This document shows positions 22,103 through 35,517 of a stretch of DNA of 35,517 nucleotides, one piece after another. Position 1 is the first letter of the stretch. Each line of letters opens with the position of its first letter. Origin of the DNA: Chloroflexota bacterium (GTDB lineage: Bacteria; Chloroflexota; Limnocylindria; Limnocylindrales; CSP1-4); contig JANYJG010000076.1 of NCBI GenBank assembly GCA_025358515.1, forward strand, positions 1 to 35,517, written 5' to 3'. The translations under genes and the position numbers were made by a program. The notes beneath the pieces are model-generated. The model searched no databases. It was not told where the DNA came from and worked only from the letters and a program-made list of their open reading frames with translations.

Positions 22103-25024
22103 ATGACACGCCTGGGTCCACGCCTATCACCGACCCTCATCGGACGCCAGGACTTGCTCGACCTGGCTGATCGTCGTCTTGCCGAGACGGCGGCGGGTCA
22201 CGGCCAGTTCCTCTTGCTCGCCGGAGAAGCCGGCGTCGGCAAGTCGCGATTCATGGCGGCGATCGAGACCATGGCCCACGGTGCGGATTTCCGAACGGCG
22301 GCCGGTTTCCTGGCTCCACAGGACAGCGACGTGCCGGCGGCGTCGCTGCTCGACATGGCGCGCTCGATGACGCGTGAGGAGGCGTGGGCGGATCTAGGAC
22401 GCAAGCTCCTTGAGCTCGTCGATGCGACAGCGGCGGCTCCGCAGCAAGGGCGCCGAGCCCTCACCCTCAAGGCCGTCGATCTGATTGTGGGCGCGCTTGA
22501 CGGGCCGACGGTGCTTTCTTTTGACGATCTACAGTGGGCGGACGACCTGAGCCTCCATATAGTCACCGAGCTCGCGCGGGCTACTCGCGATCGACCGCTG
22601 TTGATCGTCGGCGCTTATCGCACCGACGAGCTCGCCCCGGGCGCCCTCCTGCGGGAGTGGCGGGCCAGGCTCTTGACACAGCGCATCGCCGAGGAGGCGC
22701 GACTCGCACCCCTGACCCTCGAGCAGACGGCGCTCATGACGACGCTCATTCTCGGCACCGGTCTGCCGGCTCCGCGCGACGTGGTGGCCGCGATCTACGC
22801 GCGGACCGACGGCGTTCCGCTTCACATCGAAGAGCTGCTCGGGGCGATCTCCCCGGAGGAACAAACGGACAGCGTTGCGATCCGCAACGCTGCCGTCCCG
22901 GACACCCTTGAGGATGCGATCCTCCAGCGCATCAGCCGGCTCTCCCCGGATGCCCAAGCAGTCGCCCTATCCGGCGCTGTGATTGGGCGGTGCTTCGTCC
23001 CCGAGGTTCTTGCGGGCATCATGGAAGTGCCCGCCGAGTCCCTCGACCGACCGCTGCGCGAACTCGTCGACCAGCACGTGCTCGCCCCACCTGGGCCTCG
23101 CGGGCTGTTCGACTTTCGCCATCAGCTGCTGCGCGATGCTCTCTACCGCAGCCTGCCCGAGGGCCAGCGGCGCCGACTGCACGCTCGCGCCGGTGAGTTC
23201 GGGAAGGAGCTGGAGGGCGCGTCGGAGATCCATGCCTCGCTCCACTACGAGCGGGCACGGATGCCGGTCCAGGCATTCGGTTCGGCCCTTAAAGGGGCCA
23301 GGATGGCGGCTCGGCTGTCATCGCACCGCGAAGCGTTCGACTTGTACCGCCGTGCCGTTGATAACATGCCCGCCGACCTCCCTCTGGCCGAGCAGGCGGA
23401 GATCCTCGGGGCTTTCTCCGTCGAAGCCGCCGCGAACGAGGAGATCGACGCCTGCGAATGGGCGGCCGGGGAGGCGCGTAAGCGCTACGCTCGGGCAGGA
23501 GACCCGATCGGCGCGGCAGGTCAACTGGTGACCCTCGCCTGGATGGCACGCCGCAGCGCTCGGCCGGTCGGAGCGCGCCTTGGGGCTATCACGTCGGCCC
23601 TTGCCGAAGTGGACTTGCTCCCGTCCGGCCCGCCTGCGAGCCGCGTACGCGGCGCAATGTTCATGGAACTCGCCCAGGTCTTGATCGAGATGCTTGATCT
23701 CGAGGGGGCTCGCGCCGCCCTCGAATCCGGTCGGCACGCCGCGCAGGAGGCAGGCGACGGGGACGGACTCCTACAGGCGTCCTCGCTCGATGGGATGGTC
23801 GACGTGGTCGAGGGGCATGTGCGCGCCGGACTCGATCGAATGGCTGCGGTGGCACACGAGGCGCAAAATCGGGGCTTCGAGGATGCCGGAATCACCGCCT
23901 ACCGGGACGCTGCCGTCGTGGCGACGCGGGTCATGGACTATCGCCGCGCCGCGGGTTGGATCGACGCTGGACTTCGCTACGCCGACGCGATCGAGCAATC
24001 CCACTGCGCCCACATCTTGGCCGCGACCGGAGCGCTGGTGGCATGGGCGGACGGACGGTGGGATGAGGCCGTCACCCTCGGGGAGCACGCCCTCGCCGAC
24101 CGAGGGTGCAATCGCGCGGCCGGCATGGCCCGCTGGCCCCTAGGCTACACTTCGCTCGGTCGGGGTGAGGTCGAACCGGCGACCAGGCATCTGCGGACGG
24201 CAGAGGCGTTCGGCGAGGCGTTCGGCGCTCCCGATTTCATACTGGCCGCTACCTGGGGCCTGGCCGAATTGTCGATCCTCGTGGGTGACCATGAGGACGC
24301 AATAGTACGCAGCGAACGAGCCCTAGAGCTCGCCCGACGCACTGGCGAGCGGGGGAGATTTGCGCCGTTCGTGGTAACAGGAACCCGAGCCCGAATCACC
24401 GCCGGACGTCGCGGCGAAGCTGAACGCTGGCTGGCCGAAGCGACCGACTTCCTGGGTCAGAGCGAGTGGTACATTTCGCCGGTTCTCGACCACGCCATGG
24501 GTTTGCTGAGCCTTTCGGGTGGTTCGACCGTCGCCGCTCGCGAGTCGCTCGAGCGGGCCGTCCGCGGCTGGGATGCACGGACCCGGGTCTGGGAGTTGCT
24601 CTGGGCGCGCCTCGATCTCGCGGGGTGCCTGATGCACTCCGGTCGATTCGTCGACGCGGCGAGTCTGATTTCGGGTGTCCGCGAGGCCGCGAAGCGATTG
24701 CGGAGTCGGCCTCTTCTCGATCGGGTCGAGGAGCTCGGCCACCTCAATCGCCGGCATGACGCCGGAGCATCTGCCTGGCACCCGCTCACCGCCCGCGAGT
24801 TCGAAGTCGCGCAGCTCATTGCCACTGGTCTGACCAACTCGGAGATCGCGGCGGAGTTGTCGGTCGCGCCCAGAACCGTCGGCGCACACGTGGAGCACAT
24901 CCTTGCCAGGCTTGGTGCCGGACGCCGGACCGAGATCGCAAGCTGGGTTGCGACGAGGACGCACGCAATGGCGGTTGCGGGCCACCCTCACGGGTCTGAG
25001 GATGCCGAGAAGGCTACGCGTTGA
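22103..25024 (+). CDS. LuxR-family giant ATPase regulator (LAL type)
   Basis: A 973-residue regulator. The N-terminal AAA-type ATPase (about 10-330) has Walker A GEAGVGKSR (41-49), Walker B VLSFDDLQWAD with Asp141-Asp142, and a GAYRTDEL sensor. A long helical TPR-like middle (about 380-870) follows. The C-terminal LuxR helix-turn-helix (about 893-950) reads LTAREFEVAQLIATGLTNSE, with a VGAHVEHILARL recognition helix. The architecture matches MalT/LAL regulators, which bind ATP and an inducer and then activate transcription. The ligand and targets are unknown. The ATG is 7 bases after a TAGACT box with no ribosome-binding site, consistent with leaderless translation. It stands alone, upstream of tRNA-Ser. 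Confidence 0.93.
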   Translation: MTRLGPRLSPTLIGRQDLLDLADRRLAETAAGHGQFLLLAGEAGVGKSRFMAAIETMAHGADFRTAAGFLAPQDSDVPAASLLDMARSMTREEAWADLGRKLLELVDATAAAPQQGRRALTLKAVDLIVGALDGPTVLSFDDLQWADDLSLHIVTELARATRDRPLLIVGAYRTDELAPGALLREWRARLLTQRIAEEARLAPLTLEQTALMTTLILGTGLPAPRDVVAAIYARTDGVPLHIEELLGAISPEEQTDSVAIRNAAVPDTLEDAILQRISRLSPDAQAVALSGAVIGRCFVPEVLAGIMEVPAESLDRPLRELVDQHVLAPPGPRGLFDFRHQLLRDALYRSLPEGQRRRLHARAGEFGKELEGASEIHASLHYERARMPVQAFGSALKGARMAARLSSHREAFDLYRRAVDNMPADLPLAEQAEILGAFSVEAAANEEIDACEWAAGEARKRYARAGDPIGAAGQLVTLAWMARRSARPVGARLGAITSALAEVDLLPSGPPASRVRGAMFMELAQVLIEMLDLEGARAALESGRHAAQEAGDGDGLLQASSLDGMVDVVEGHVRAGLDRMAAVAHEAQNRGFEDAGITAYRDAAVVATRVMDYRRAAGWIDAGLRYADAIEQSHCAHILAATGALVAWADGRWDEAVTLGEHALADRGCNRAAGMARWPLGYTSLGRGEVEPATRHLRTAEAFGEAFGAPDFILAATWGLAELSILVGDHEDAIVRSERALELARRTGERGRFAPFVVTGTRARITAGRRGEAERWLAEATDFLGQSEWYISPVLDHAMGLLSLSGGSTVAARESLERAVRGWDARTRVWELLWARLDLAGCLMHSGRFVDAASLISGVREAAKRLRSRPLLDRVEELGHLNRRHDAGASAWHPLTAREFEVAQLIATGLTNSEIAAELSVAPRTVGAHVEHILARLGAGRRTEIASWVATRTHAMAVAGHPHGSEDAEKATR

Positions 25025-25100
25025 CACTGCTGTCTCCCGACGCTAGAGCGGTCATAATCCGCGAAACTGTGACAGGCGAGCCGCCACACGTATCGACGCG

Positions 25101-25106
25101 TAAACT
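25101..25106 (+). promoter_or_regulatory. Candidate -10 box of tRNA-Ser
   Basis: TAAACT lies 17 bases before the mature tRNA 5' end. No clear -35 is seen at normal spacing. Confidence 0.35.
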
Positions 25107-25123
25107 GATCACGGCCCCCCCGC

Positions 25124-25209
25124 GGAGAGGTGGCAGAGTGGTCTAATGCGGCGGTCTTGAAAACCGCTGGACGAGAGTCCCGTGAGTTCGAATCTCACCC
25201 TCTCCGCCA
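25124..25209 (+). tRNA. tRNA-Ser (anticodon UGA)
   Basis: The 7-bp acceptor stem GGAGAGG (25124-25130) pairs with CCTCTCC (25199-25205). The anticodon arm GCGGT-loop-ACCGC carries TGA at 25158-25160. A long variable arm is typical of serine tRNAs. The T arm GTGAG-TTCGAAT-CTCAC is at 25182-25198. Discriminator G25206 and a gene-encoded CCA (25207-25209) follow. It reads UCA and other UCN codons by wobble. Its synthetase, serS, is at 13082. Confidence 0.97.
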
Positions 25210-25224
25210 ACAATTTGAGCGTGA

Positions 25225-25580
25225 ACTGGCCGATTTGGGCCCCGTGGGCGGCCGCCAACCACATCGACGATCAACTTCCCCAAGGGCGACGCCCGTTCCA
25301 GCGGGGTCAACGCGCCCTTGGGCCGCGGCGGCAAGTTGGCCAAGACCTTCAAGTCACGGGACGCGTCCCAGCCGATGCCCGGCGCAACGTGCAATGTGCC
25401 CGCCTCGGCGGTCGCAGTCACGGGAACCGTCACCGTGGTCAACGAGAGCGCGCCCGGTTTCTTCACGCTCCAGGCGATTATGCGTGCCGGAACCCCGACG
25501 ACTGGCTGGCTCTACTTCCCCAAGGGTGACGTTCGAGCTACCGGGCTCACGGTGATGCTTGGGGCCGGCTACCAGGCGCG
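25225..25580 (+). pseudogene. Remnant of a surface-protein repeat, no start, cut at both ends
   Basis: One frame without a stop from 25225 encodes two copies of an extracellular repeat, 80 codons apart. The first copy includes PPTTSTINFPKGDARSSGVN and then APLGRGGKLAK. The second includes CNVPASAVAVTGTVTVV, GFFTLQ, then PTTGWLYFPKGDVRATGLTV and MLGAGYQARI. The two share an 18-base direct repeat with one mismatch (25274-25291 and 25514-25531). This type of repeat is found in large secreted proteins. No ATG/GTG with a ribosome-binding site and no signal peptide precede it. Two stop codons (25216, 25222) lie just upstream, and its end runs into the opposite-strand PPOX gene. It looks like a decayed fragment beside tRNA-Ser. 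It accounts for the 360-base gap after the tRNA. Confidence 0.45.
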
Positions 25581-26009
25581 GATCCGCGCAGGCCAAACCC
25601 GGACCGCCACCGAGTACGTGCGCGCTTCCGTCTCGTCCATCTGCCAGTGGGCGAGCGCGTCGCGGAATTTCGCGGCGTAGGCCTCATGGCGGTCGATAGG
25701 CAGAACCGCCAGATCCACCTCGGCGGTGCCCTCAATGACCAGGGCATGGTCCGCATAAGGGTCTGAGTTCAGATTGAACGAAACCTCCGCGTGGGCGGCG
25801 ATGTTGCGCAGCTTCGGGGTGTTCGGCTTGCTGTAGATGAGGATCGTGCTGCCATCCCATAGGAACGAGATGGGCGACGTTTGGACCCTGCCGTCCGGGG
25901 CGAAAGTTGTCAGCCAGCCGACCAAATCGTCGGCCAGATGCTGCCTGGCCCATGTCCCGGCTTCGGCCTGGAGGCCGGCGAGGACCGATTTGTCCGCGGG
26001 GGTCGTCAC
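25569..26009 (-). CDS. PPOX-class probable F420-dependent oxidoreductase, Rv3369 family
   Basis: A 146-residue split-barrel protein of the pyridoxamine-phosphate-oxidase superfamily. WLTTFAPDGRVQTSPISFLWDG, followed by ILIYSKPNTPKLRNIAAHAEVSFNL, is characteristic of the Rv3369-type F420-binding subfamily. Members of this group bind deazaflavin F420 or flavin. The substrate is unknown. GTG 26009 overlaps the upstream small gene's stop by 4 nt (GTGA), so the two form an operon. Cofactor choice is inferred from family only; no F420 biosynthesis gene is in the window. Confidence 0.88.
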   Translation of the reverse strand: MTTPADKSVLAGLQAEAGTWARQHLADDLVGWLTTFAPDGRVQTSPISFLWDGSTILIYSKPNTPKLRNIAAHAEVSFNLNSDPYADHALVIEGTAEVDLAVLPIDRHEAYAAKFRDALAHWQMDETEARTYSVAVRVWPARIRAW

Positions 26010-26260
26010 GCGAGTGCGTACACGACGGCGACGGCGGCCTTCGTCTCGTAGCCGCTGCCCTCGCGACCCATGAAGGCCTGAGCGTGACGCGTTGGGACGG
26101 CTGCGGTCGAGACGATTCGCCAGCCGCCGACGGCTCGTTCTTGGGCGTCTTGCGCGATCTCAGCGAAGATTTGCGCCGGATCGATCTCGGCGGCGTTGTC
26201 CTCGGAGAAGTAAACGACGATTGTCTGATTCGGGCCCGCCTGAAATTCGGTTCGCTGCAT
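26006..26260 (-). CDS. Small conserved-looking protein with a GGWRIVS motif
   Basis: An 84-residue protein from ATG 26260, which has GGGAGG 7 bases upstream. A longer frame to 26614 is rejected, since it crosses the divergent gene's start. NQTIVVYFSEDNAAEIDP, then IFAEIAQDAQERAVGGWRIV and a YETKAAVAVVYAL C-terminal strand, give a beta-alpha-beta pattern. The GGWR(I/V)VS segment recalls DUF4177-like proteins, but full-length similarity is not clear. It overlaps and precedes the PPOX gene, so it may act with that enzyme. Function unknown. Confidence 0.7.
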   Translation of the reverse strand: MQRTEFQAGPNQTIVVYFSEDNAAEIDPAQIFAEIAQDAQERAVGGWRIVSTAAVPTRHAQAFMGREGSGYETKAAVAVVYALA

Positions 26261-26394
26261 AGGGTTTCCTCCCAATCGGCAGTCGTAGTGACTGCATCCG
26301 ATAGACAGTTTGCGCCATCCGACGAGCCCGCGCGCAGCCTGAGTTCCGCGCCGGCCAACGGTACCGTTGAGTGGCGTCTGCAGCCTCGCTCCTG

Positions 26395-26400
26395 CATACT
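26395..26400 (+). promoter_or_regulatory. -10 box of the second DUF3298 gene, leaderless
   Basis: CATACT ends 6 bases before ATG 26407. No ribosome-binding site is present, which fits leaderless translation. Confidence 0.45.
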
Positions 26401-26406
26401 CCAGCC

Positions 26407-27303
26407 ATGCGAAGCTCCATCGCCCAGCGGATTTTGGACGTCCTGCCGATCGTCGGCATCGTCGGTCTGGCCCTGGCGGGAGTGTTCGTGGCGATGACCC
26501 TCCTAGTTTCTGCGGTTCCCAGCGACGCTTCGCCGGTACCACCGAGCGCGATTGCCGCCGGATCGCCGACGAATGTCCCGGAACTAACGCTCCCTCCGGC
26601 ACAGCCGACCGCAACTCCCACTCCGGGTGTAACCGTCGTGCTCCCGCCTAATGCTCCGGCCATCCGGAAGGGCGTTGCCCAGGCCAAGGATCCGCGAGGG
26701 GTGTGGTCCGCGGTCCTGTACTACCCGCAGTTCGCGCCGTCGAGTACGCCGCTGGCCGATGCCATGAATGCGGAAATCGCCTCCGAAGTGCAGGATCGCC
26801 TAGCCCAGTGGCAGGTCGGTCCCGCTGCGGTGAAATCGGGTTCGGGCAAGGTCAACCAGCTCACGGGCAACTTCTTCGTCGAGATGGTTTCGCCCACGCT
26901 CGCCAGCTTCTCGTTGACCTGGGTCGACAACGTCTCAGAAACCGCTCCCACGACGAACATCGAGACGATCACCTACGACCTAGGGACCGGGTCGCGGATG
27001 GGGCTGGCCGATGTCTTCGCCGACACGGGTGGGGCGCTGGCGATCATGTCCGATCGATCTAGGACCTTCCTGGCGACTTACCTCGGGAGCCATTACGACC
27101 CGGCCACGGTGGAGTCGGGCACGTCGCCTTCGCCGTCCAACTTCTCCAATTGGTCCCTGACGACGGCCGGCTTCAAGGTCACCTTCTCCGAATATCAGGT
27201 CGCGCCGTATGCCGATGGGAGGCCGGTCGTGGTCGTGCCCTGGTCGGCCTTCGAGGGCGTGATCGCGGCGTCGGGGCCGGTTGCGAAGCTGGCCGGGCAC
27301 TAA
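26407..27303 (+). CDS. DUF3298/RsiV-like membrane-anchored protein
   Basis: From ATG 26407 the protein has 298 residues; a start at 26371 would precede the -10 box. A transmembrane helix (about 16-38) is followed by a Pro/Thr/Ala linker (about 40-80) and an extracellular domain. This domain has VWSAVLYYPQFAP, FFVEMVSPTLASFSLTW, then YDLGTGSRMGLADVFADTGG and FKVTFSEYQVAPYADGRP. The last two segments are the DUF3298 core. It is a paralog of the lipoprotein at 14404, but is anchored by a helix rather than a lipid. The role is unknown: it may be an anti-sigma-like or sensing domain, or another exported protein. It is divergent from the small GWR-motif gene. Confidence 0.75.
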   Translation: MRSSIAQRILDVLPIVGIVGLALAGVFVAMTLLVSAVPSDASPVPPSAIAAGSPTNVPELTLPPAQPTATPTPGVTVVLPPNAPAIRKGVAQAKDPRGVWSAVLYYPQFAPSSTPLADAMNAEIASEVQDRLAQWQVGPAAVKSGSGKVNQLTGNFFVEMVSPTLASFSLTWVDNVSETAPTTNIETITYDLGTGSRMGLADVFADTGGALAIMSDRSRTFLATYLGSHYDPATVESGTSPSPSNFSNWSLTTAGFKVTFSEYQVAPYADGRPVVVVPWSAFEGVIAASGPVAKLAGH

Positions 27304-27350
27304 CCCGGCGCCGGCCAGCGTCAACGGCGACATAAGGTCCTTCCCGTCGG

Positions 27351-27356
27351 TAGACT
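27351..27356 (+). promoter_or_regulatory. Candidate -10 box of the ferredoxin-NADP+ reductase gene
   Basis: TAGACT with a weak GCGACA (27327-27332) 18 bases upstream. The leader would be about 60 nt, and GGAGAG (27412-27417) serves the ATG. Confidence 0.45.
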
Positions 27357-27422
27357 TGGGCGCGCGGACGTACCGTCGAGGCAGACAGGACCCGGCCCGC
27401 AGCCGGCGCATCGGAGAGCAGC

Positions 27423-28346
27423 ATGGCGGCCGAGTACAACGCAACTGTGTCGAGTCGGGTGGAAGTCGCACCCGGCCTGGTCATCATGCGAGTCGTCCCG
27501 GACAAGCTGCCGTTCGAGTTCAAGGCCGGCCAGTATGTCGTACTGGGTCTGAAGGCCTCCGAGCCGCGTATCGATGAATCCGACCCGGACGCCCCGAGCG
27601 TCGAAGCCGGCGGCCACATCTACGCTCCCGCGGCAAGGGTTGTCGCCACCGAGATCGCGGGCACTGCCGAAAGCCGCGCTGCAGTGGACGCCCAGGCCGC
27701 TTCGGTCGCTCGAGCCTCCGCCGACCCCGAACGCATGATCCGCCGCGCCTATTCCATCGCCTCGGAGAGCCGCTCAGACGAGTACCTGGAGTTTTATCTG
27801 ACCGTGGTCTTAAGTGGTGACCTGACGCCCCGTCTGTTCAAACTCAAGGTCAAGGATCGGGTCTACGTGGGGCCCAAGGCAGTCGGCGTCTTCACTCTGG
27901 ACAAGGCCGTTGGCAAGCACATCCTGATGATCGGGACCGGCACCGGCCTGGCGCCGTACATGTCGATGCTACGCAGCGAGTTGGTCTGTAATGGGCCGCG
28001 CCAGTTCGTGGTCGTACACGGCGCCCGCTTCTCGTGGGACCTGGGCTATCGCACCGAGCTGACCGGCCTGGCCCGGCACTGCCCTAACTTCCACTACATT
28101 CCAGTGATCACTCGGCCCCAGGAAGACGTGACCTGGAAAGGCAAGAGCGGCTACCTCCAGAACTTGATCGCCTCGGGCGCGATCGAGGAGGCAACCAGCC
28201 TGCCGCTTACGCCGGACCACTTCGACATCTTCCTGTGCGGCAACCCCGGCATGATCGAGACGGTTATCGGCTGGGCCGAGGCCCGCGGCTTCACCCGCGA
28301 TAAGGGCCACGATATCGGCACTCTCCACACGGAGGAATACTGGTAG
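27423..28346 (+). CDS. fpr: Ferredoxin-NADP+ reductase
   Basis: A 307-residue flavoprotein that moves electrons between NADPH and ferredoxin or flavodoxin. The FAD site has RRAYSIAS from Arg107 (the RxYS motif). The NADP site has GTGTGLAPYMSML from Gly171 and CGNPGMIE from Cys272. The C-terminus EEYW ends in Trp, as in the bacterial Fpr subclass. Between the first FAD-domain strands (GQYVVLGL, about 36-43) and RRAYS lies an extra acidic and Ala-rich segment of about 55 residues (46-104), absent from typical Fpr proteins of about 250 residues. Its role is unclear. The gene has its own promoter and is followed by the trp promoter. Confidence 0.9.
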   Translation: MAAEYNATVSSRVEVAPGLVIMRVVPDKLPFEFKAGQYVVLGLKASEPRIDESDPDAPSVEAGGHIYAPAARVVATEIAGTAESRAAVDAQAASVARASADPERMIRRAYSIASESRSDEYLEFYLTVVLSGDLTPRLFKLKVKDRVYVGPKAVGVFTLDKAVGKHILMIGTGTGLAPYMSMLRSELVCNGPRQFVVVHGARFSWDLGYRTELTGLARHCPNFHYIPVITRPQEDVTWKGKSGYLQNLIASGAIEEATSLPLTPDHFDIFLCGNPGMIETVIGWAEARGFTRDKGHDIGTLHTEEYW

Positions 28347-28372
28347 GGGTCCCTCACCTTGCGCGACGCCAT

Positions 28373-28402
28373 TTGACACCCTGCCGCCGTTCGCCCTAGA
28401 CT
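28373..28402 (+). promoter_or_regulatory. Promoter of the trp operon
   Basis: TTGACA (28373-28378), an 18-base spacer and TAGACT (28397-28402). A strong sigma-70-type promoter 27 bases after the fpr stop. Transcription would begin near 28409, just before the T-box leader. Confidence 0.75.
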
Positions 28403-28408
28403 CCCGCC

Positions 28409-28742
28409 ACATTACGAATACGGGCGATGATCGGGACGAGTACCTCCCGTCTGCCGAAACAGAGACCCAGCGGTTGGTGGAAGCTGGGACGGCGACAGGA
28501 GTGAATGGCCCCGTGAGCCTCCGGACCAAACCGCGAACTTCCAGGGTTCGCCAGTAGGCTCCGGCGCAAAGCGCCAGCGATAAAGGGCAGCACCGATCGG
28601 CGGGAGTCGCGCCGGCAGGAGCGGGAAACCGCGCCGGAGCCGCAACGCGAGAGCCCGGCCCGTCGGCCAAGAGAGCGGCATCGCCGAATGTGGGTGGCAC
28701 CGCGGAAGGATTGGCCTTTCGTCCCTGACGAAGGGTCTTTTT
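28409..28742 (+). promoter_or_regulatory. T-box riboswitch, probable tRNA-Trp sensor
   Basis: The hallmark T-box sequence GGGTGGCACCGCGG is at 28692-28705, followed by CGTCCCT in the terminator arm. Upstream, stem I shows an AGAGA bulge motif and a GGTGGAAGC apical motif (28470-28500 region), as in transcriptional T-boxes. CTCCCGTC and GACAGGAG can pair, with one mismatch. They enclose a specifier loop with AGTA on the 5' side and GTGAATGGC on the 3' side, and TGG at 28506-28508 is the likely Trp specifier. Uncharged tRNA-Trp would pair with the bulge and favour antitermination. The specifier choice is inference, but the trpE context supports it. Confidence 0.9.
28715..28742 (+). terminator. 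T-box-controlled intrinsic terminator
   Basis: CCTTTCGTC (28715-28723) pairs with GACGAAGGG (28727-28735) across a 3-base loop, with one G-U pair, followed by TCTTTTT (28736-28742). It is the clearest T-run terminator in the window, and it ends 48 bases before trpE. Confidence 0.88.
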
Positions 28743-28790
28743 GATTCCCCGCCACCCGCGGGGCCGGGGCACGAGAAAGGCAACACGGCG

Positions 28791-30512
28791 ATGGCATCAA
28801 CCGATCCGCTCAGTCTCGGCGAGGTCCGGCGCTTGTCCGGTTCCGCCGATACCATCCTGCTGACCGCAACCCGGAACGCGGATCTGGAGACGCCGATGAG
28901 CGCCTTCATGCGCTTCGACGACGGCGGCCCGGCCTTCCTGCTGGAGTCCGTCGAGGGCGGCGAGCGGCTGGGCCGCTACTCGTTCATGGGCGTGGGCCCA
29001 CGCCGGCTGCTGACGGTCCGTGACGGCATGGCCACGATCCAGACCCGGCCCGTCGGCGTGACCGACTTCTGCCCCGACCTCCCAACTGAGACGATCCCTG
29101 GCCCGGATCCACTGGTGGCGCTCCGCCGCTTCCTTCCTAAGCGCCGCATCCTTCCCAACGAGGACATTCCGCGGTTCCCCGGCGGCGCGGTCGGCGCCCT
29201 GTCGTACGACGCCGCAGCCTGCTTCGAGCCCAGCGTTCCACTGCCGGACCGAGACCCCGTCGGCGTGCCAATGGCCGCGTTCCAGGAGACGGATCTGGTC
29301 CTGGTTTTCGATCATCTGACCCACACCCTCTCTGCCGTTGCGGCTCTGCATGTGGAGACATCCGACCTGGAAGGCCGATACGCCATCGCCGAGCGGGCCA
29401 TCTTCGAGGCGCTCGAACGAACGGGTCGACCGACCGAACTCGAGATGGCGAGCCTGACCCGGCGCAGCCAGGCCGGAACGCTCGACGGTGCAGCAGCCGC
29501 CGGTGCCGTGGCCCCCGACGAGAGGGGCGGCCCGGGGCTTACGCAAATCGAAGTCAGCATGGAGCGGGACGAGTACGAATCGGCCGTTCGGACGGCCAAG
29601 GAGGCAATCGCGGCCGGCGAGGCGATCCAGATAGTCGTGGCCCGTCGCCAGACCTTCGAGCGCCCCGTCATCGATGGCGCGCCGCTCGATGCCGTCGAGG
29701 TGTACCGCGCTCTCCGCCGTGTGAACCCCAGCCCATACCTCTTCTTCGTCCGGATGCCGGAATTCTCCGTCGTCGGGGCGAGCCCGGAGCTGTTGGTTCG
29801 CGTTGAAGGCGATCGTATTACCACTCACCCGATCGCCGGCACGCGGCCCCGCGGCGCTACCCCGGCCGAGGACGACGCCCTGGCCAATGCCCTGGAGCGC
29901 GATCCAAAGGAAAGGGCCGAGCACGTGATGCTCGTGGACCTGGGCCGAAACGACCTCGGCCGCGTGGCCCGGGCCGGCACGGTGGCCGTGACCAAGTACA
30001 TGGCAGTCGAGCGCTACAGCCACGTCCTGCACCTGGTGAGCAACGTGGAAGCGCGACTCAAGCCCGGTCTGGACGCTCTCGACGCCTTGCGCAGCATCTT
30101 CCCGGCCGGAACGCTCTCGGGCGCGCCCAAGATTCGGGCCATGCAACTCATCGCCGAGGCGGAGCGCGAGCGGCGCGGTCTGTACGGCGGTGCCGTCGGC
30201 TACCTTGGCTACGACGGCAACCTCGACACCGCCATCACGATCCGATCCGCGGTCATCAAGGGCGACCTGATTCACGCCACCGTCGGCGCCGGCATCGTTG
30301 CCCATTCCGTTCCCGAGCGCGAGTTCGAGGAGACGGAACACAAGGCCGGCGCGATGAAACGCTCCCTGGAGATGGCGATTGCCGAAGCCCGGGGAGAGGC
30401 AGGCACTCACTCGGATGGGGCCGCTCGAGTGGCGGTTGGCGTGGCGGTTGGCGTGGCGGCCGGCGACGTGGCGGGCCGGCCCGGCGCAGCCCCAACGGAG
30501 ACGTCCCGATGA
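28791..30512 (+). CDS. trpE: Anthranilate synthase component I
   Basis: Converts chorismate to anthranilate with ammonia delivered by TrpG. Length is 573 residues, about 50-70 longer than usual because of a C-terminal tail. The N-terminal feedback site includes FLLESVEGGERLGRYSF (about 43-60), with the LLES motif used to bind tryptophan. The C-terminal chorismate-binding domain has NPSPYLFFVRMPEFSVVGAS, then HPIAGTRPRG, DLGRNDLGRVA and FPAGTLSGAPKIRAM. The tail (about 545-573) has three 4-residue repeats of VAVG/VAAG type, encoded by a 12-bp tandem repeat. ATG 28791 follows the T-box leader. The stop overlaps trpG by ATGA. Confidence 0.96.
   Translation: MASTDPLSLGEVRRLSGSADTILLTATRNADLETPMSAFMRFDDGGPAFLLESVEGGERLGRYSFMGVGPRRLLTVRDGMATIQTRPVGVTDFCPDLPTETIPGPDPLVALRRFLPKRRILPNEDIPRFPGGAVGALSYDAAACFEPSVPLPDRDPVGVPMAAFQETDLVLVFDHLTHTLSAVAALHVETSDLEGRYAIAERAIFEALERTGRPTELEMASLTRRSQAGTLDGAAAAGAVAPDERGGPGLTQIEVSMERDEYESAVRTAKEAIAAGEAIQIVVARRQTFERPVIDGAPLDAVEVYRALRRVNPSPYLFFVRMPEFSVVGASPELLVRVEGDRITTHPIAGTRPRGATPAEDDALANALERDPKERAEHVMLVDLGRNDLGRVARAGTVAVTKYMAVERYSHVLHLVSNVEARLKPGLDALDALRSIFPAGTLSGAPKIRAMQLIAEAERERRGLYGGAVGYLGYDGNLDTAITIRSAVIKGDLIHATVGAGIVAHSVPEREFEETEHKAGAMKRSLEMAIAEARGEAGTHSDGAARVAVGVAVGVAAGDVAGRPGAAPTETSR
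30429..30464 (+). repeat. 12-bp tandem repeat, three copies, at the 3' end of trpE
   Basis: gtggcggttggc at 30429-30440 and 30441-30452, then gtggcggccggc at 30453-30464. It encodes V-A-V/A-G repeats in the extra C-terminal tail. Confidence 0.9.
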
Positions 30513-31192
30513 TCCTCATGATCGACAACTACGACTCGTTCACGTTCAACCTGGTCCAGGCTCTGGAGGCGACCGGCGCCGACGTCCGCGTGGTGCGCAA
30601 CGATGCCATCGACCGCGCCGGCATCGAAGCCCTGGCGGCCGACCCGACGGCCAACCTGCGCGGCATCATCATTTCGCCCGGGCCCGGCGACCCGGACTCG
30701 GCGGGCGTCTCGATGGACGCCGTCCGCGTTGCGCTGGACCGCAAGATCCCGCTCCTGGGCGTGTGCCTGGGAATGCAGGCCATGGGCCAGGCTCTGGGGG
30801 CGCAGATCCGGCGAGCGCCGACGCTCGTCCACGGCGAGGCATCCAGTGTTCGCCACGACGGCAAGGGTCTGCTTGCAGGTATGCCCAACCCGTTCATGGC
30901 CGCCCGATACCACTCCCTCAGCGTGGCCCCGGAAACCCTACCGGCGGACGTGATCGTCACGGCCCGCACCGAGGAGGACTACGTGGTCATGGGAATTCGG
31001 CACCTCAATGCGCCTATCGAGGGCGTTCAATACCACCCCGAATCCGTTCTAACGCCGCAAGGCCCGCACCTCCTTGCCAACTTCCTGCGCCTGGCGGGCG
31101 AGGGCGGGGCAGCCGTGCTGGATCACGCGTCGGGCTCATTCGCGCTGGCCGGGCTGGCCGGTCTGGCCGGTCGCGCGGAGGTCGTCCGATGA
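30509..31192 (+). CDS. trpG: Anthranilate synthase component II (glutamine amidotransferase)
   Basis: Supplies ammonia from glutamine to TrpE; in some bacteria the same protein also serves PabB. It has 227 residues. The start DNYDSFTFNLVQAL is typical. Nucleophile Cys86 is in GVCLGMQAMGQ, and His176-Glu178 in the HPES motif complete the triad. The C-terminus carries an extra GLAGLAG stretch encoded by three copies of a 9-bp unit (31145-31171). It overlaps both trpE and trpD by 4 nt, so it belongs to the trp transcript. Use also in folate synthesis cannot be excluded. Confidence 0.95.
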   Translation: MILMIDNYDSFTFNLVQALEATGADVRVVRNDAIDRAGIEALAADPTANLRGIIISPGPGDPDSAGVSMDAVRVALDRKIPLLGVCLGMQAMGQALGAQIRRAPTLVHGEASSVRHDGKGLLAGMPNPFMAARYHSLSVAPETLPADVIVTARTEEDYVVMGIRHLNAPIEGVQYHPESVLTPQGPHLLANFLRLAGEGGAAVLDHASGSFALAGLAGLAGRAEVVR

Positions 31193-32265
31193 GCGAGTTG
31201 GTGAAGCACGCCCTGGCCGCAATCATCGAGGGCAAGCTGCTCTCGATGGAGGAGGCCCGTGCGGCCATGGGTTCCGTGATGGACGGCGAGGCCACGCCTG
31301 CACAACTGGCGGCGATGCTCGTGGCCCTGCGGATGCGAGGCGAGACGGTCGGGGAACTGGCGGGTTTTGCCTCGGCTATGCGTGAACGCGTCGTGCGCGT
31401 CCAAGCGCCGGACGACGCCATCGATACGTGCGGCACCGGGGGCGACCACAGCGGCACATTCAACATCTCCACCGCAGCGGCGCTAGTCATCGCCGCCGGT
31501 GGCGTTCCGGTGGCCAAGCACGGGAATCGGGCCGTAACCTCCGCCTGCGGTTCCGCGGACGTCCTCGAAGCGCTCGGGGTCCGAACCGACCAGGACCCGC
31601 AGGAAGCGGCTCAGGCGTTGGGTACGGACGGCTTCGCGTTCCTCTTTGCCCCCGGCTATCACCCGGCGATGAAGCATGCCGGCCCGACTCGCCGAGAGAT
31701 CGGTGTGCGCACCGCATTCAACCTGCTCGGCCCGATAACGAACCCGGCCGGCGCGCGGCGTCAAGTCGTGGGTGTCGGCGACGCCGCCGCGGCCCCACGT
31801 CTGGCGGAGGTCCTGCGGCTGCTCGGGGCCGAGCGAGCCCTGGTCGTCCACGGGGACGGCATCGACGAGTTGCCGCTGGACGGCACCGGCGTCCTTTACG
31901 ACGTCACTCCATCCGGCGTCACGCGGCATGCGGTCGTGGCCGCGGATCTGGGATTGACCCCGGCGCCGATGTCCGCACTCAAGGGCGGCGGGCCGGCCGA
32001 GAACGCCGCCGCTATCGAGGCAATCCTGGGCGGTAGACACGGTCCGGGTCGCGACGTGGTTCTGCTCAACGCCGCGGCAGGTTTCCTGGTTGCGGGTCGG
32101 GCTTCAGGGTTGAGGGAGGGTTTGAGGCTGGCCGCCGCGGCGATCGACGGCGGCTCGGCAACGGCGCTGCTGACCAGGCTGCGCGGGGCGAAGATCGCCA
32201 ACGACGCGACCCAGGCCCAGCCGGCCGCACCGGACACTCGAGCGACGGAGGCCACACCGGCATGA
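31189..32265 (+). CDS. trpD: Anthranilate phosphoribosyltransferase
   Basis: Joins anthranilate and PRPP to make phosphoribosyl-anthranilate. It has 358 residues from ATG 31189, which overlaps the trpG stop. The open frame extends upstream, but that part covers trpG in another frame and is not used. DTCGTGGDHSGTFNISTAAA holds the PRPP-binding glycine motif. KHGNRAVTSACGSADVLEAL is the second conserved segment. NLLGPITNPAGA and a VVHGDGIDEL metal/anthranilate region follow. The Ala/Thr/Pro-rich tail (about 338-358) is nonconserved. The stop overlaps trpCFB by ATGA. Confidence 0.96.
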   Translation: MSELVKHALAAIIEGKLLSMEEARAAMGSVMDGEATPAQLAAMLVALRMRGETVGELAGFASAMRERVVRVQAPDDAIDTCGTGGDHSGTFNISTAAALVIAAGGVPVAKHGNRAVTSACGSADVLEALGVRTDQDPQEAAQALGTDGFAFLFAPGYHPAMKHAGPTRREIGVRTAFNLLGPITNPAGARRQVVGVGDAAAAPRLAEVLRLLGAERALVVHGDGIDELPLDGTGVLYDVTPSGVTRHAVVAADLGLTPAPMSALKGGGPAENAAAIEAILGGRHGPGRDVVLLNAAAGFLVAGRASGLREGLRLAAAAIDGGSATALLTRLRGAKIANDATQAQPAAPDTRATEATPA

Positions 32266-35264
32266 CCATCGAAAGCCCCACTCGCAAGTCCAAGCCCCGC
32301 TCGGGCGTGGTGGCGGAGATCGCCGCGCGGCGTCTCGCCGACGTCCAATTGGAACTCGGAGTGCGCACTTACCGATCTCTCGCTCAGGATGCGGCCCAGT
32401 TCTCCAAGAGTCCCGGCGGTGCGCCACGGCCGATCGCGGAACGCCTTGCGGGGCCCGGCCTGCACTTGATCGCCGAAGTCAAACGCCGCTCGCCGTCCGT
32501 TGGGGTGATCGCCGCCGATGCGGATCCGGTCGCGCTCGCCCGCGCCTACGAGGCCGGTGGCGCCTCGGCCATATCCGTGCTGTGCGAGCCGCATTGGTTC
32601 GGTGGCTCCGTGGCTGATGTGCGCGCCGTTCGCGCGGCGGTGACGCTGCCGGTGCTGGCCAAAGAGTTCGTCGTCGACGAGCGCCAGCTGCCAGTGCTCC
32701 GAGCCGCCGGCGCGGACATGGTCTTACTACTGGCGTCGGTGCTGCCGGCCAGGAAGCTGGCCCGCTTCGTGACTCTTGCCTTCAAGCTGGGCCTGGAGCC
32801 GCTGGTCGAGGCCCACGACGAGCGTGAGCTCGCGGCCGCCCTGGCCACGGATGCCCGCCTCATCGGGCTCAATAACCGCGATCTCCGCAGCCTGAGCGTG
32901 GACCCGGAGCGATGCGTTCGATTGCGGGCGCGCGTGCCGAACGATCGGCTGGTGGTGGGCGAGTCGGGCGTTGGCGAGCCCCGAACGCTGGTCGGCTGGC
33001 GGGCGGTCGGAATCGATGCTGCCCTCATCGGGGAGGCCCTGATGCGCTCGGCCGACCCGGCCGCGGCGGCCCGCGCATTCGTGAACGCCGGGTCGGTTCC
33101 ACGTGACGTGGCGGCAAAGGCGCGCCTTCCGCTCGTCAAGATATGCGGCGTAACCGACGTCGAGGGCGTGCTGGCGGCGATCCGCGCCGGTGCCGATGCC
33201 ATCGGCCTTAACCTGGTTCCGGGCTCTCCTCGATGCCTGACATTGGCAGAGGCCAGGCAGTTCGCGGCGTTGATCCGCGCCGCTACCCCCGCCGGCAAGC
33301 GGCCCCGGATAGTGGCAGTGCTGGCGGATGCCTCCGCCGCCGACACCGCCGCGGCAATCGCGGCCTGCGACCCGGACGCGGTCCAACTCTCCGGGGACGA
33401 GCCCGTGGCGGCTGTCGCGACCGCCGGCCGGCCGGTCTGGAAAGTGCTGCATCTGCCGGCCGAAGGAAGCCGGGCTGCCGACCCGACCGGCAACGACTCC
33501 GCGGCCGCCAGCGCCGACTCAGCGGCCAGTGCCGACTCAGCGGCCGCCAGCGCCATCGAGGCAGGCAAGGCGTACCTGGCGGTTGGCACCGAGCGCCTCA
33601 TTCTCGATACTGCCGGCGGTCCAATGCCGGGCGGTACCGGCATAGGCGTCTCCCGCCAGATCGCGGCCGCCGTAGCTCGCGAGATCCCCGTGGTCCTGGC
33701 CGGCGGCTTGGCGCCCGCGAACGTCGGCGACGCCGTGCTGGAAGTGCCGGCGATCGGCGTCGACGTGGCCTCTGGCGTGGAATCGCCGCGCCGGCCGGGA
33801 AAGCGCCCACTCAAAGATCCTCTTCGCGTGGCTTTGTTCATCAAGCGCGCCCGGGCCGCTCGCTTCGACCGTCCGCACGTCCGTGTCCGGCCCACGCCGA
33901 TCCCAGAGCCGCTCCTTGAGCCGGACACCGCCGGCAAGTGGGGCCTCGATCGCGACTTCGGTGGACGCTACGTACCCGAGACCCTGGTCGCGGCGCTGGA
34001 TCAGTTGGAAGCGGCTTGGGCCCAAACGCGCCAGGACCCGCGCTTCTGGGCCGAACTGCGTGAGATGCAGTTCTCGTATGGCGGCCGCCCCACGCCCATC
34101 TACCGCGCCGATCGACTCGGGGCGGAAATGCTCGAGGCAGCGCGGGGGCTAGCGGGCGACCGCGATCGTCTGCCGGATCGGATCCACCTCTACCTCAAGC
34201 GCGAGGACCTCAACCACACCGGGGCCCACAAGCTCAACAACGCCCTGGGTCAGGTTCTGCTGGCGCGACGTCTGGGCAAGAGTCGCGTCATCGCAGAGAC
34301 GGGCGCGGGAATGCACGGCGTAGCCACGGCAACGGCCTGCGCCCTGCTCGAGATCCCATGCGTCGTTCATATGGGCGTTGAGGACATCGCCCGCCAGGCC
34401 CCCAACGTCCTTCGGATGGAGGCGCTGGGAGCGGAGGTTCGGCCGGTCCACGGCGGATCCGGCACGCTCAAGGATGCCGTCAGCGAGGCATTGCGCGACT
34501 GGGTGACGAACGTCGAAACCTCGCACTACTGCCTGGGCTCCACGATGGGCCCGCACCCGTACCCGATGCTTGTCCGAGATTTCCAGCGTGTCATCGGCGA
34601 CGAGGCGGCGGCTCAGCTCATGAGCGTCGAAGGACGGCTGCCCGACCTGGCGATCGCCTGCGTCGGCGGCGGTTCGAACGCCCTCGGCCTGATCAGCCGA
34701 TTCATCGGCGAGCCGTCCGTCCGACTCGCGGTGGCCGAGGCGGCGGGGGAGGGGCTCGATTCGGGACATCACGCGGCGGCGTTGCTCGGCGGAACGCCGG
34801 GCATCCTTCACGGCTCGCGGTCCTACATGCTCCAGGACGCGGACGGCCAGGTCATCGAGGCGGTCTCGATCTCCGCGGGTCTGGACTACCCCGGCATCGG
34901 CCCACAGCTGGCTGCGCTCATGCAGGCCGGCCGAATCACGGTGTCGTCCGCGACGGACGTGGAGGCGATAACCGCAGTGAGGCAGGTCGCCAGAACGGAA
35001 GGGATCCTGGCCGCGGTCGAATCTGCGCACGCGGTCGCTGCTCTTCCGGACGTTCTGGCACGAACCGCGCGACGTGCGGCTTCTCGCGGCGGCGGCGGCG
35101 CCGGCGGACGGGACGGCGAGCTGCCCCGGGAAGCGGTGATCGTCCTCGGCCTCTCGGGCCGCGGTGACAAGGACCTAGCGGCGTTGGGCGAGACCCAAAG
35201 CCGAGCGACGTTGGGCGAGACCCAAAGCCTAGCGGGACTGGGACTCAAGGAGGCGAAACGATGA
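32262..35264 (+). CDS. trpC/trpF/trpB: Trifunctional TrpC-TrpF-TrpB fusion protein
   Basis: A single 1000-codon frame joins three enzymes. Indole-3-glycerol-phosphate synthase (about 20-275) has HLIAEVKRRSPS with Lys74 and GESGVGEPRTL. Phosphoribosylanthranilate isomerase (about 290-527) has VKICGVTD with Cys295 and LILDTAGG with Asp449. It carries an Ala/Ser/Asp insertion (about 402-436) and reads VQLSGDEP where most have VQLHGDE. Tryptophan synthase beta (about 555-975) has KREDLNHTGAHKLNNA with PLP lysine Lys657, AETGAGMHGVATA, GGGSNALG and LSGRGDKD. The frame shows no stop or shift. TrpC-TrpF fusions are well known; adding TrpB is unusual. The tail has a 27-bp tandem repeat. The start overlaps trpD and the stop overlaps trpA, both by ATGA. 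Confidence 0.93.
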   Translation: MTIESPTRKSKPRSGVVAEIAARRLADVQLELGVRTYRSLAQDAAQFSKSPGGAPRPIAERLAGPGLHLIAEVKRRSPSVGVIAADADPVALARAYEAGGASAISVLCEPHWFGGSVADVRAVRAAVTLPVLAKEFVVDERQLPVLRAAGADMVLLLASVLPARKLARFVTLAFKLGLEPLVEAHDERELAAALATDARLIGLNNRDLRSLSVDPERCVRLRARVPNDRLVVGESGVGEPRTLVGWRAVGIDAALIGEALMRSADPAAAARAFVNAGSVPRDVAAKARLPLVKICGVTDVEGVLAAIRAGADAIGLNLVPGSPRCLTLAEARQFAALIRAATPAGKRPRIVAVLADASAADTAAAIAACDPDAVQLSGDEPVAAVATAGRPVWKVLHLPAEGSRAADPTGNDSAAASADSAASADSAAASAIEAGKAYLAVGTERLILDTAGGPMPGGTGIGVSRQIAAAVAREIPVVLAGGLAPANVGDAVLEVPAIGVDVASGVESPRRPGKRPLKDPLRVALFIKRARAARFDRPHVRVRPTPIPEPLLEPDTAGKWGLDRDFGGRYVPETLVAALDQLEAAWAQTRQDPRFWAELREMQFSYGGRPTPIYRADRLGAEMLEAARGLAGDRDRLPDRIHLYLKREDLNHTGAHKLNNALGQVLLARRLGKSRVIAETGAGMHGVATATACALLEIPCVVHMGVEDIARQAPNVLRMEALGAEVRPVHGGSGTLKDAVSEALRDWVTNVETSHYCLGSTMGPHPYPMLVRDFQRVIGDEAAAQLMSVEGRLPDLAIACVGGGSNALGLISRFIGEPSVRLAVAEAAGEGLDSGHHAAALLGGTPGILHGSRSYMLQDADGQVIEAVSISAGLDYPGIGPQLAALMQAGRITVSSATDVEAITAVRQVARTEGILAAVESAHAVAALPDVLARTARRAASRGGGGAGGRDGELPREAVIVLGLSGRGDKDLAALGETQSRATLGETQSLAGLGLKEAKR
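35183..35229 (+). repeat. 27-bp-period direct repeat at the 3' end of trpCFB
   Basis: Two exact 20-base copies of gttgggcgagacccaaagcc start at 35183 and 35210. Each contains the short inverted repeat TTGGG-cgaga-CCCAA. They encode two LGETQS units at the protein C-terminus, just before trpA. Confidence 0.9.
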
Positions 35265-35517
35265 CCGGTCGAGCGGGGCAACCTTCGTCGCCCGTCATCG
35301 GCTCCGTCGCAACCCATGGCGCGGCCGCGGTATACCCCACAAACGCGGCCGCGCCTACCCTCTCCGGACCCAACGACACCGCCGGCGCCGGCCGGATCGG
35401 GGCTGCGTTCCGGCTGGCCGCGGCGGACGGCCGCGCGGCGCTCATTCCATATGTTGTGGCCGGCTATCCGGACCACGAGACATCGCTGGCGGCAGCCCTG
35501 GCAGCCGCGGATGCGGG
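35261..35517 (+). CDS. trpA: Tryptophan synthase alpha chain, 3' end outside window
   Basis: Cleaves indole-3-glycerol phosphate to indole, which passes to TrpB. Only the first 85 codons are in the window. ATG 35261 overlaps the trpCFB stop by ATGA and has AAGGAGG (35247-35253) upstream. The first 44 or so residues are a Thr/Ala/Gly/Pro-rich extension without similarity. The family's start then appears as RIGAAFRLAAADGRAALIPY (about 45-64), then VVAGYPDHETSLAAAL, with the typical (A/T)G(Y/D)P motif. A later start would remove the extension, but the ribosome-binding site supports 35261. It completes the trp pathway. Confidence 0.9.
   Translation, partial: MTGRAGQPSSPVIGSVATHGAAAVYPTNAAAPTLSGPNDTAGAGRIGAAFRLAAADGRAALIPYVVAGYPDHETSLAAALAAADA

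Follow-up and report, generated by a model that had tools for sequence, protein, structure and literature searches.

A putative trifunctional TrpC-TrpF-TrpB protein in the tryptophan operon of an uncultivated Chloroflexota lineage

A gene of 1000 codons in an uncultivated Chloroflexota lineage is predicted, from its sequence and those of its relatives, to encode a trifunctional tryptophan-synthesis enzyme, which would have arisen by stop loss between adjacent trpC, trpF and trpB genes (probability about 0.9). The window analysed here, i.e. the whole stretch of 35,517 nucleotides, is a complete contig of a 264-contig MAG assembly and contains an operon of the order trpE-G-D-CFB-A. To the known two-domain fusions, this adds a three-domain Trp architecture that is fixed in the lineage.

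Results

Upstream of the fused gene, all on the forward strand, lie trpE for anthranilate synthase component I (28791-30512; an ORF of 573 aa that scores 463 bits against TIGR00564, under the cut-off of 518), trpG for component II (30509-31192; 227 aa, TIGR00566 passed with 223 bits, cut-off 121) and trpD for anthranilate phosphoribosyltransferase (31189-32265; TIGR01245 passed with 381 bits, cut-off 199). The start of trpD overlaps the trpG stop and has a GGAGG 7 bases upstream, trpCFB begins at an ATGA that spans the trpD stop, with a GGAGG 10 bases upstream, and the start of trpA, the gene for tryptophan synthase alpha, overlaps the trpCFB stop and follows an AGGAGG 7 bases upstream. As the window is the whole contig, which ends there, trpA is cut after 85 codons (35261-35515, forward strand); it was recognised by a BLAST match to TrpA of genome G030 and is too short for an NCBIfam match. 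In an Rfam scan of 25000-35517, a tRNA at 25124-25206 was the sole match.

The fused gene itself (32262-35264, forward strand) is, in the ORF list and its translation, a single open frame from ATG to stop with 1000 codons for 1000 aa, in agreement with the uninterrupted frame described in the initial annotation. The ATGA start recurs in 10 of the 14 trpCFB rows among those listed, window included, so this start is likely right and the N-terminal tail free; over the first 15 residues, substitutions in the relatives' alignment show no codon bias. Three Pfam families follow one another along the chain, namely IGPS (PF00218; residues 54-272, 231 bits, cut-off 27), PRAI (PF00697; two stretches, 72 bits, cut-off 22.7) and PALP (residues 607-931, 116 bits), and this domain search of the full frame, which had been proposed from the start, thus recovered all three parts. 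Each of the 38 aligned members likewise matches all three families. Pfam, the structure model and a sequence search against solved structures delimit an indole-3-glycerol phosphate synthase (TrpC) domain at residues ∼16-286 (32307-33119); Pfam, the PRAI search and the model place a phosphoribosylanthranilate isomerase (TrpF) domain at residues ∼290-535 (33129-33866); and Pfam, NCBIfam and the model a tryptophan synthase beta (TrpB) domain at residues 566-975 (33957-35186), which scores as TrpB1 (TIGR00263; 516 bits, cut-off 392). Residues 976-1000 (35187-35261) form a C-terminal tail that is unconserved as judged from the model and the alignment. Among the 25 NCBIfam models listed, no TrpC equivalog (best 238 bits, cut-off 260) and no TrpF equivalog exceeded its own cut-off. 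Since only the TrpB model did so, automatic naming may say TrpB, which may make trpC and trpF seem absent.

Within TrpF, residues 399-440 (33456-33581) make up a low-complexity, Ala/Ser/Asp-rich insert with block-mean pLDDT down to 48. Its length varies among relatives: in 70 distinct fused proteins (69 of family f1, that of the window, and one, L122, of family f4), WKVLHLP and LILDT lie 27 to 71 residues apart. Across these proteins, TrpF has the lowest mean identity to the window (60%; the other two domains 73% and 75%).

We took TrpC to be marked by an IGPS domain that has the catalytic residues Glu/Lys/Lys/Glu/Asn/Glu/Ser, TrpF by a PRAI domain with the catalytic Cys and Asp, TrpB by an equivalog score above the cut-off together with the PLP lysine and GGGSN, and a separate TrpA by its catalytic Glu and Asp and a beta-contact Asp/Pro; the roles of the TrpC, TrpF and TrpB residues are assumed from the enzymes of E. 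coli, Sulfolobus, Thermotoga and Salmonella. The window keeps E72, K74, K134, E183, N204, E234 and S235 of TrpC, C295 and D449 of TrpF, and H656, K657, E679 and S965 of TrpB. The intact motifs of three enzymes pointed out in the initial annotation are also kept through the 70 proteins: the TrpC residues are conserved in 69-70 of them, the missing one being a contig-edge row, the TrpF Cys (KICG) in 70/70 and its Asp (LxDT) in 69/70, with Glu in L122 and the glycines after both motifs kept, and the TrpB Lys and the Ser of GGGSN in 70/70 each.

A trpA gene directly follows trpCFB in 66 of the 70 loci, and the other four lie at sequence ends. The window's own TrpA stops short of E49, D56, P57 and D60, and the residue test for alpha2beta2 membership rests on its relatives, in which a separate TrpA keeps all four in 64/64 readable rows. 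By analogy with the Salmonella tryptophan synthase, D56 and P57 presumably touch beta, and we take K737 of TrpB, which is invariant in the 38 aligned rows, to be the partner lysine.

The TrpF-TrpB junction had rightly been put between these two domains, yet at residues ∼527-555, which we correct to ∼536-565 (33867-33956) on the basis of the start-codon scan, the model and the alignment. Residue 548 of the chain pairs with residue 6 of M. tuberculosis TrpB (5tcf), and from there onward the alignment follows the N-terminal arm of that protein, which leaves about a dozen residues for the spacer proper. Among 17 close relatives, residues 536-565 contain no gaps, and the differences per site at codon positions 1, 2 and 3 amount to 0.198, 0.106 and 0.506 (TrpC core: 0.118, 0.080 and 0.438; TrpB: 0.107, 0.065 and 0.440). 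P538, P544, D555, G558, W560 and G561 are near-invariant (68-70 of the 70 proteins), and the last TrpF helix (515-535) is conserved above the rest of TrpF. In an AlphaFold2 model built from the 38-row alignment (mean pLDDT 84, pTM 0.87), the junction is modelled as ordered, with block-mean pLDDT values of 94, 88, 86 and 79 over residues 531-570. Low-confidence stretches are residues 1-13, 406-417, 829-858, 862-875, 944-950 and 977-1000, with pLDDT mostly under 50 over TrpB residues 829-875. The best structural matches were between the TrpB part and tryptophan synthases (TMt 0.84-0.87 among the best ten rows).

The fused gene was seen in f1 in both surveys (61 genomes; 151 genomes of the class). 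Tallied by hand from match rows, the 151 genomes include 84 of f1: 66 with one match through the C, F and B domains, four with match pieces inside one frame (G008, G014, G121, G143), four with pieces on different contigs and breaks at contig ends (G005, G028, G131, G150), one with broken frames (G023) and nine without a trpCFB match. Rows of G034, G089, G139 and G142 include a TGA (4/66), and each reads as one C-F-B frame (L020, L205-L207). The survey of related genomes called for by the initial annotation thus finds the fusion in one frame in 70 of 75 matched f1 genomes, the other five being contig breaks (four) or broken frames (one), which is not the general split of trpF and trpB that would have spoken against a fusion. 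In two of the unmatched genomes, G062 and G102, the contig ends at trpA and would cut off trpCFB; G007, G031, G124, G133, G147, G152 and G155 also lack a trpA match.

A scan of public contigs returned 78 loci, 67 of which belong to this lineage by sequence, including the frame-broken L094 and several contig-end cuts. The remaining 11 come from Lachnospiraceae, Veillonellaceae, Ruminococcaceae and other groups; in 10 of them the frame with TrpB measures 397-411 aa, and in L100, a Lachnospiraceae record, TrpB is part of a 616-aa TrpFB frame. The 70 distinct complete proteins were retained from 104 rows, leaving out the edge-cut L030/L044, L083/L111, L095 and L128 and the broken L094 and L136. 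In L094 the frame is broken inside TrpF, part of which is missing, and L136 (G023) has several frame breaks; in both we presume an assembly error or decay.

The fusion also occurs in a second family of the class, f4: G065 carries it on a 978-kb contig and G081 on two partial contigs (C7 and C154); in G098, F-B is read through and cut before, and an f4-like contig binned with G032 also carries the fusion. In G079, a C-F frame runs into the end of a contig, and the TrpB frame lies on another one, with trpA behind it and no TrpF in front, an arrangement that may be a chimera or a real split. Six other f4 genomes gave no match at 1e-40. The Asp of the TrpF LxDT motif is Glu in five of six f4 or f4-like rows (L122, L123, L124, L127 and L128, two of which come from one bin) and Asp in L125. 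The two copies of G081 (L123, L124) are similar, overlapping and partial, and lie in one bin; perhaps they are strain variants.

Families f3 and f5 differ in that trpC is directly followed by trpB (six loci, L129-L134). None of the 78 genomes matching PRAI (PF00697) is f3 or f5, in a survey that apparently used the same genome draw as the class survey, where 26 f3 genomes and one f5 genome match TrpB or TrpC. The TIGR01919 (PriA-type HisA) cut-off was passed by 0/18 genomes in the test of the TrpF-less families and by 1/14 control genomes, and the HisA-TrpF model stayed below its cut-off in 8/8 f3 and f5 genomes examined. The class therefore offers, within one operon, a compact case of fusion (two families) and possible TrpF loss (two others).

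Of 20 Chloroflexota loci outside the class, 18 have the order C, F, B, mostly unfused; C and F share one frame in three of these 18 (L173, L180, L182), and L178 and L186 have TrpB alone. Across 301 genomes of the phylum, no C-to-B stop-free run occurred outside the class among the matches listed, and the only C-to-B spanning row there among these matches (L135, from G357) reads as separate genes. At E <= 1e-130, a threshold that may overlook more divergent fusions, no trpCFB fusion was seen in 299 genomes of the G421 phylum, the spanning rows of G614 and G516 being separate genes, and 188 genomes of the G426 phylum had one fused contig only, which is probably misbinned; the latter phylum also has three TrpFB fusions alongside a separate TrpC. 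Outside f1, the fusion was counted from read frames, as a long open-frame value is no proof of it: G335 has an open-frame value of 963 aa, yet its TrpB reads in a frame of 413. Of 165 records in a plasmid search, 10 were listed, and the annotation gives separate genes for the three whose cover exceeds 80%. A trifunctional CFB with a separate trpA is thus indeed rare in the sampled genomes of the three phyla (301, 299 and 188). One contig filed under a Myxococcales MAG (L076, PNAM01000004.1) carries a Chloroflexota-type trpCFB operon; it is probably misbinned, because a further trpF and trpB are present at another place in this MAG.

In each of the three domain trees (TrpB, TrpC, TrpF), one branch sets the f1 rows apart from all others, and another does so for the f4 rows (20 f1 proteins were used; L183 and L185 were left out for TrpB, as a second TrpB-like gene had been picked there). 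In the TrpB tree, f1 and f4 group together (branch support 83/91, not starred). When a single origin of f1 and f4 was tested, TrpC leaned against it (p-AU 0.066) and TrpF did not reject it (0.28); one or two fusion events are possible. The C-F-B order is already present in the phylum, and therefore only loss of stops is needed for the fusion: the adjacent trpC, trpF and trpB of a C-F-B operon would have lost their intervening stops and become one gene.

Discussion

CF, FB and CB fusions are already known, each with an NCBIfam model, and CFB is one more joining of adjacent operon genes, uncommon yet simple to account for. TrpCF, rightly cited in the initial annotation as a known bifunctional fusion (NF006945), has no TrpB and shares two domains in the same order with the window protein, which scores 258 bits over residues 42-514, below the cut-off of 380; the solved relatives of TrpCF, 1pii and 7etx, were found by sequence search with the window protein. 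TrpFB (NF010376) has F joined to B in the same way but lacks TrpC; the window protein reaches 556 bits over residues 290-979, below the cut-off of 819, and examples of TrpFB were read in three genomes of the G426 phylum, with a separate C, and in L100. The IGPS/TrpB fusion (NF010375) shares TrpC and TrpB in one chain (573 bits, below the cut-off of 1386), yet its model is named without TrpF activity. The TrpB part is structurally like that of alpha2beta2 tryptophan synthases (M. tuberculosis 5tcf and 6ub9; P. furiosus 1wdw), whereas the window beta subunit has about 535 extra N-terminal residues.

In excerpts of the published work, the TrpFB fusion is described as rare and as occurring in bacteria and archaea (PMC11237513), C-F and E-G fusions are reported from Sargasso Sea data (PMC2395257), and eukaryotic Trp fusions are listed (PMC3942023). 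By its description in an excerpt, the Euglena multifunctional tryptophan enzyme likewise has several pathway enzymes per chain, yet with five catalytic domains and in a eukaryote (PMC2395257). An excerpt on the class Limnocylindria, which lists the families P2-11E, QHBO01, CSP1-4 and the small-genome Limnocylindraceae, does not mention the fusion (PMC13212565). Fusion names occur as a gene list in PMC9745158 and as an operon order in PMC12452182. The searched literature, which took in few subscription journals, contained no recognisable description of a bacterial TrpCFB fusion.

In the predicted enzyme, the TrpF part would convert PRA to CdRP and the TrpC part CdRP to indole glycerol phosphate (IGP). 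The separate TrpA would dock on the TrpB part, make indole from IGP and pass it via the usual alpha-beta tunnel, and the TrpB part would form tryptophan from indole and serine and dimerise, giving an (A)2(CFB)2 complex. What is expected from the sequences is an ordinary alpha-beta tryptophan synthase with a large N-terminal extension on beta. How a fused beta subunit forms an alpha2beta2 complex is a weaker puzzle than initially stated: N-terminal TrpB fusions (TrpFB) exist and a trpA with the key residues follows the gene, and therefore TrpA probably docks as usual. The gain of the fusion would probably lie in a fixed stoichiometry and the co-localisation of TrpC and TrpA rather than in obligate channelling; the sequence itself gives no sign that intermediates pass along the chain. 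Doubtful, on the other hand, is a rigid-scaffold metabolon in which the conserved junction, ordered in the model, would fix TrpC, TrpF and TrpB, so that the TrpB-docked TrpA would receive IGP directly from TrpC and the four activities would hand over intermediates from PRA to tryptophan. Either way, the protein is a natural covalent CFB unit for asking whether TrpC tethered beside tryptophan synthase alters flux.

Three other explanations bear on whether one chain with three activities is made at all. That a lost stop or a frameshift artificially joins separate genes could be suspected of a 264-contig MAG, particularly as a few relatives have broken frames, but the chance of this is negligible given 70 distinct fused proteins whose record names suggest an origin in fen, palsa, groundwater and other samples, some of them encoded on contigs as long as 238 kb and 978 kb, and the codon-like substitution throughout the junction. 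For the family as a whole, conservation and codon periodicity rule out an assembly artefact. It also appears improbable that the one frame yields free TrpB (or TrpC-F) in addition, through processing or internal re-initiation. The junction does have GTG codons, and a start with a 4-base SD-like match occurs in 29 of the 70 rows; in 21 of these it is the same GTG, within the last helix of TrpF. We attribute such matches to chance and to the conservation of Lys-Asp codons. In none of the 70 proteins does an SD of 5 or more bases precede a junction ATG or GTG, and the stretch is without any ATG in 55 of them. In the window, the in-frame starts at residues 505-575 (GTG, GTG and TTG) lack even a 4-base SD, which agrees with the earlier reading that no internal start with a good ribosome-binding site lies there, whereas trpD, trpCFB and trpA are all preceded by GGAGG or AGGAGG. 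An internal start for free TrpB is thus unsupported, and a junction that is conserved and ordered in the model speaks against processing as well.

Very improbable, too, is a TrpF domain that persists as an inactive structural relic, with the isomerase supplied elsewhere. It is the fastest domain and carries the variable insert, its catalytic Asp is mostly Glu in f4, and the families f3 and f5, without a TrpF match, indicate that loss is possible; yet the Cys of KICG and the Asp of LxDT are retained in 70/70 and 69/70 proteins along with the following glycines, and the PRAI matches of f1 sit on trpCFB contigs, barring a paralogue in four genomes and the f4-like contig in G032. A single chain with all three activities remains the preferred reading.

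The TrpF-like paralogue occurs in the f1 genomes G021, G125, G148 and G154; where read (L139:2829-3638 and L140:2331-4790), it keeps LxDT and is without KICG at its start. Besides, an additional TrpB2-type gene is present at G000:C108:56989-57903 (L002), with 545 bits against NF009057 (cut-off 366).
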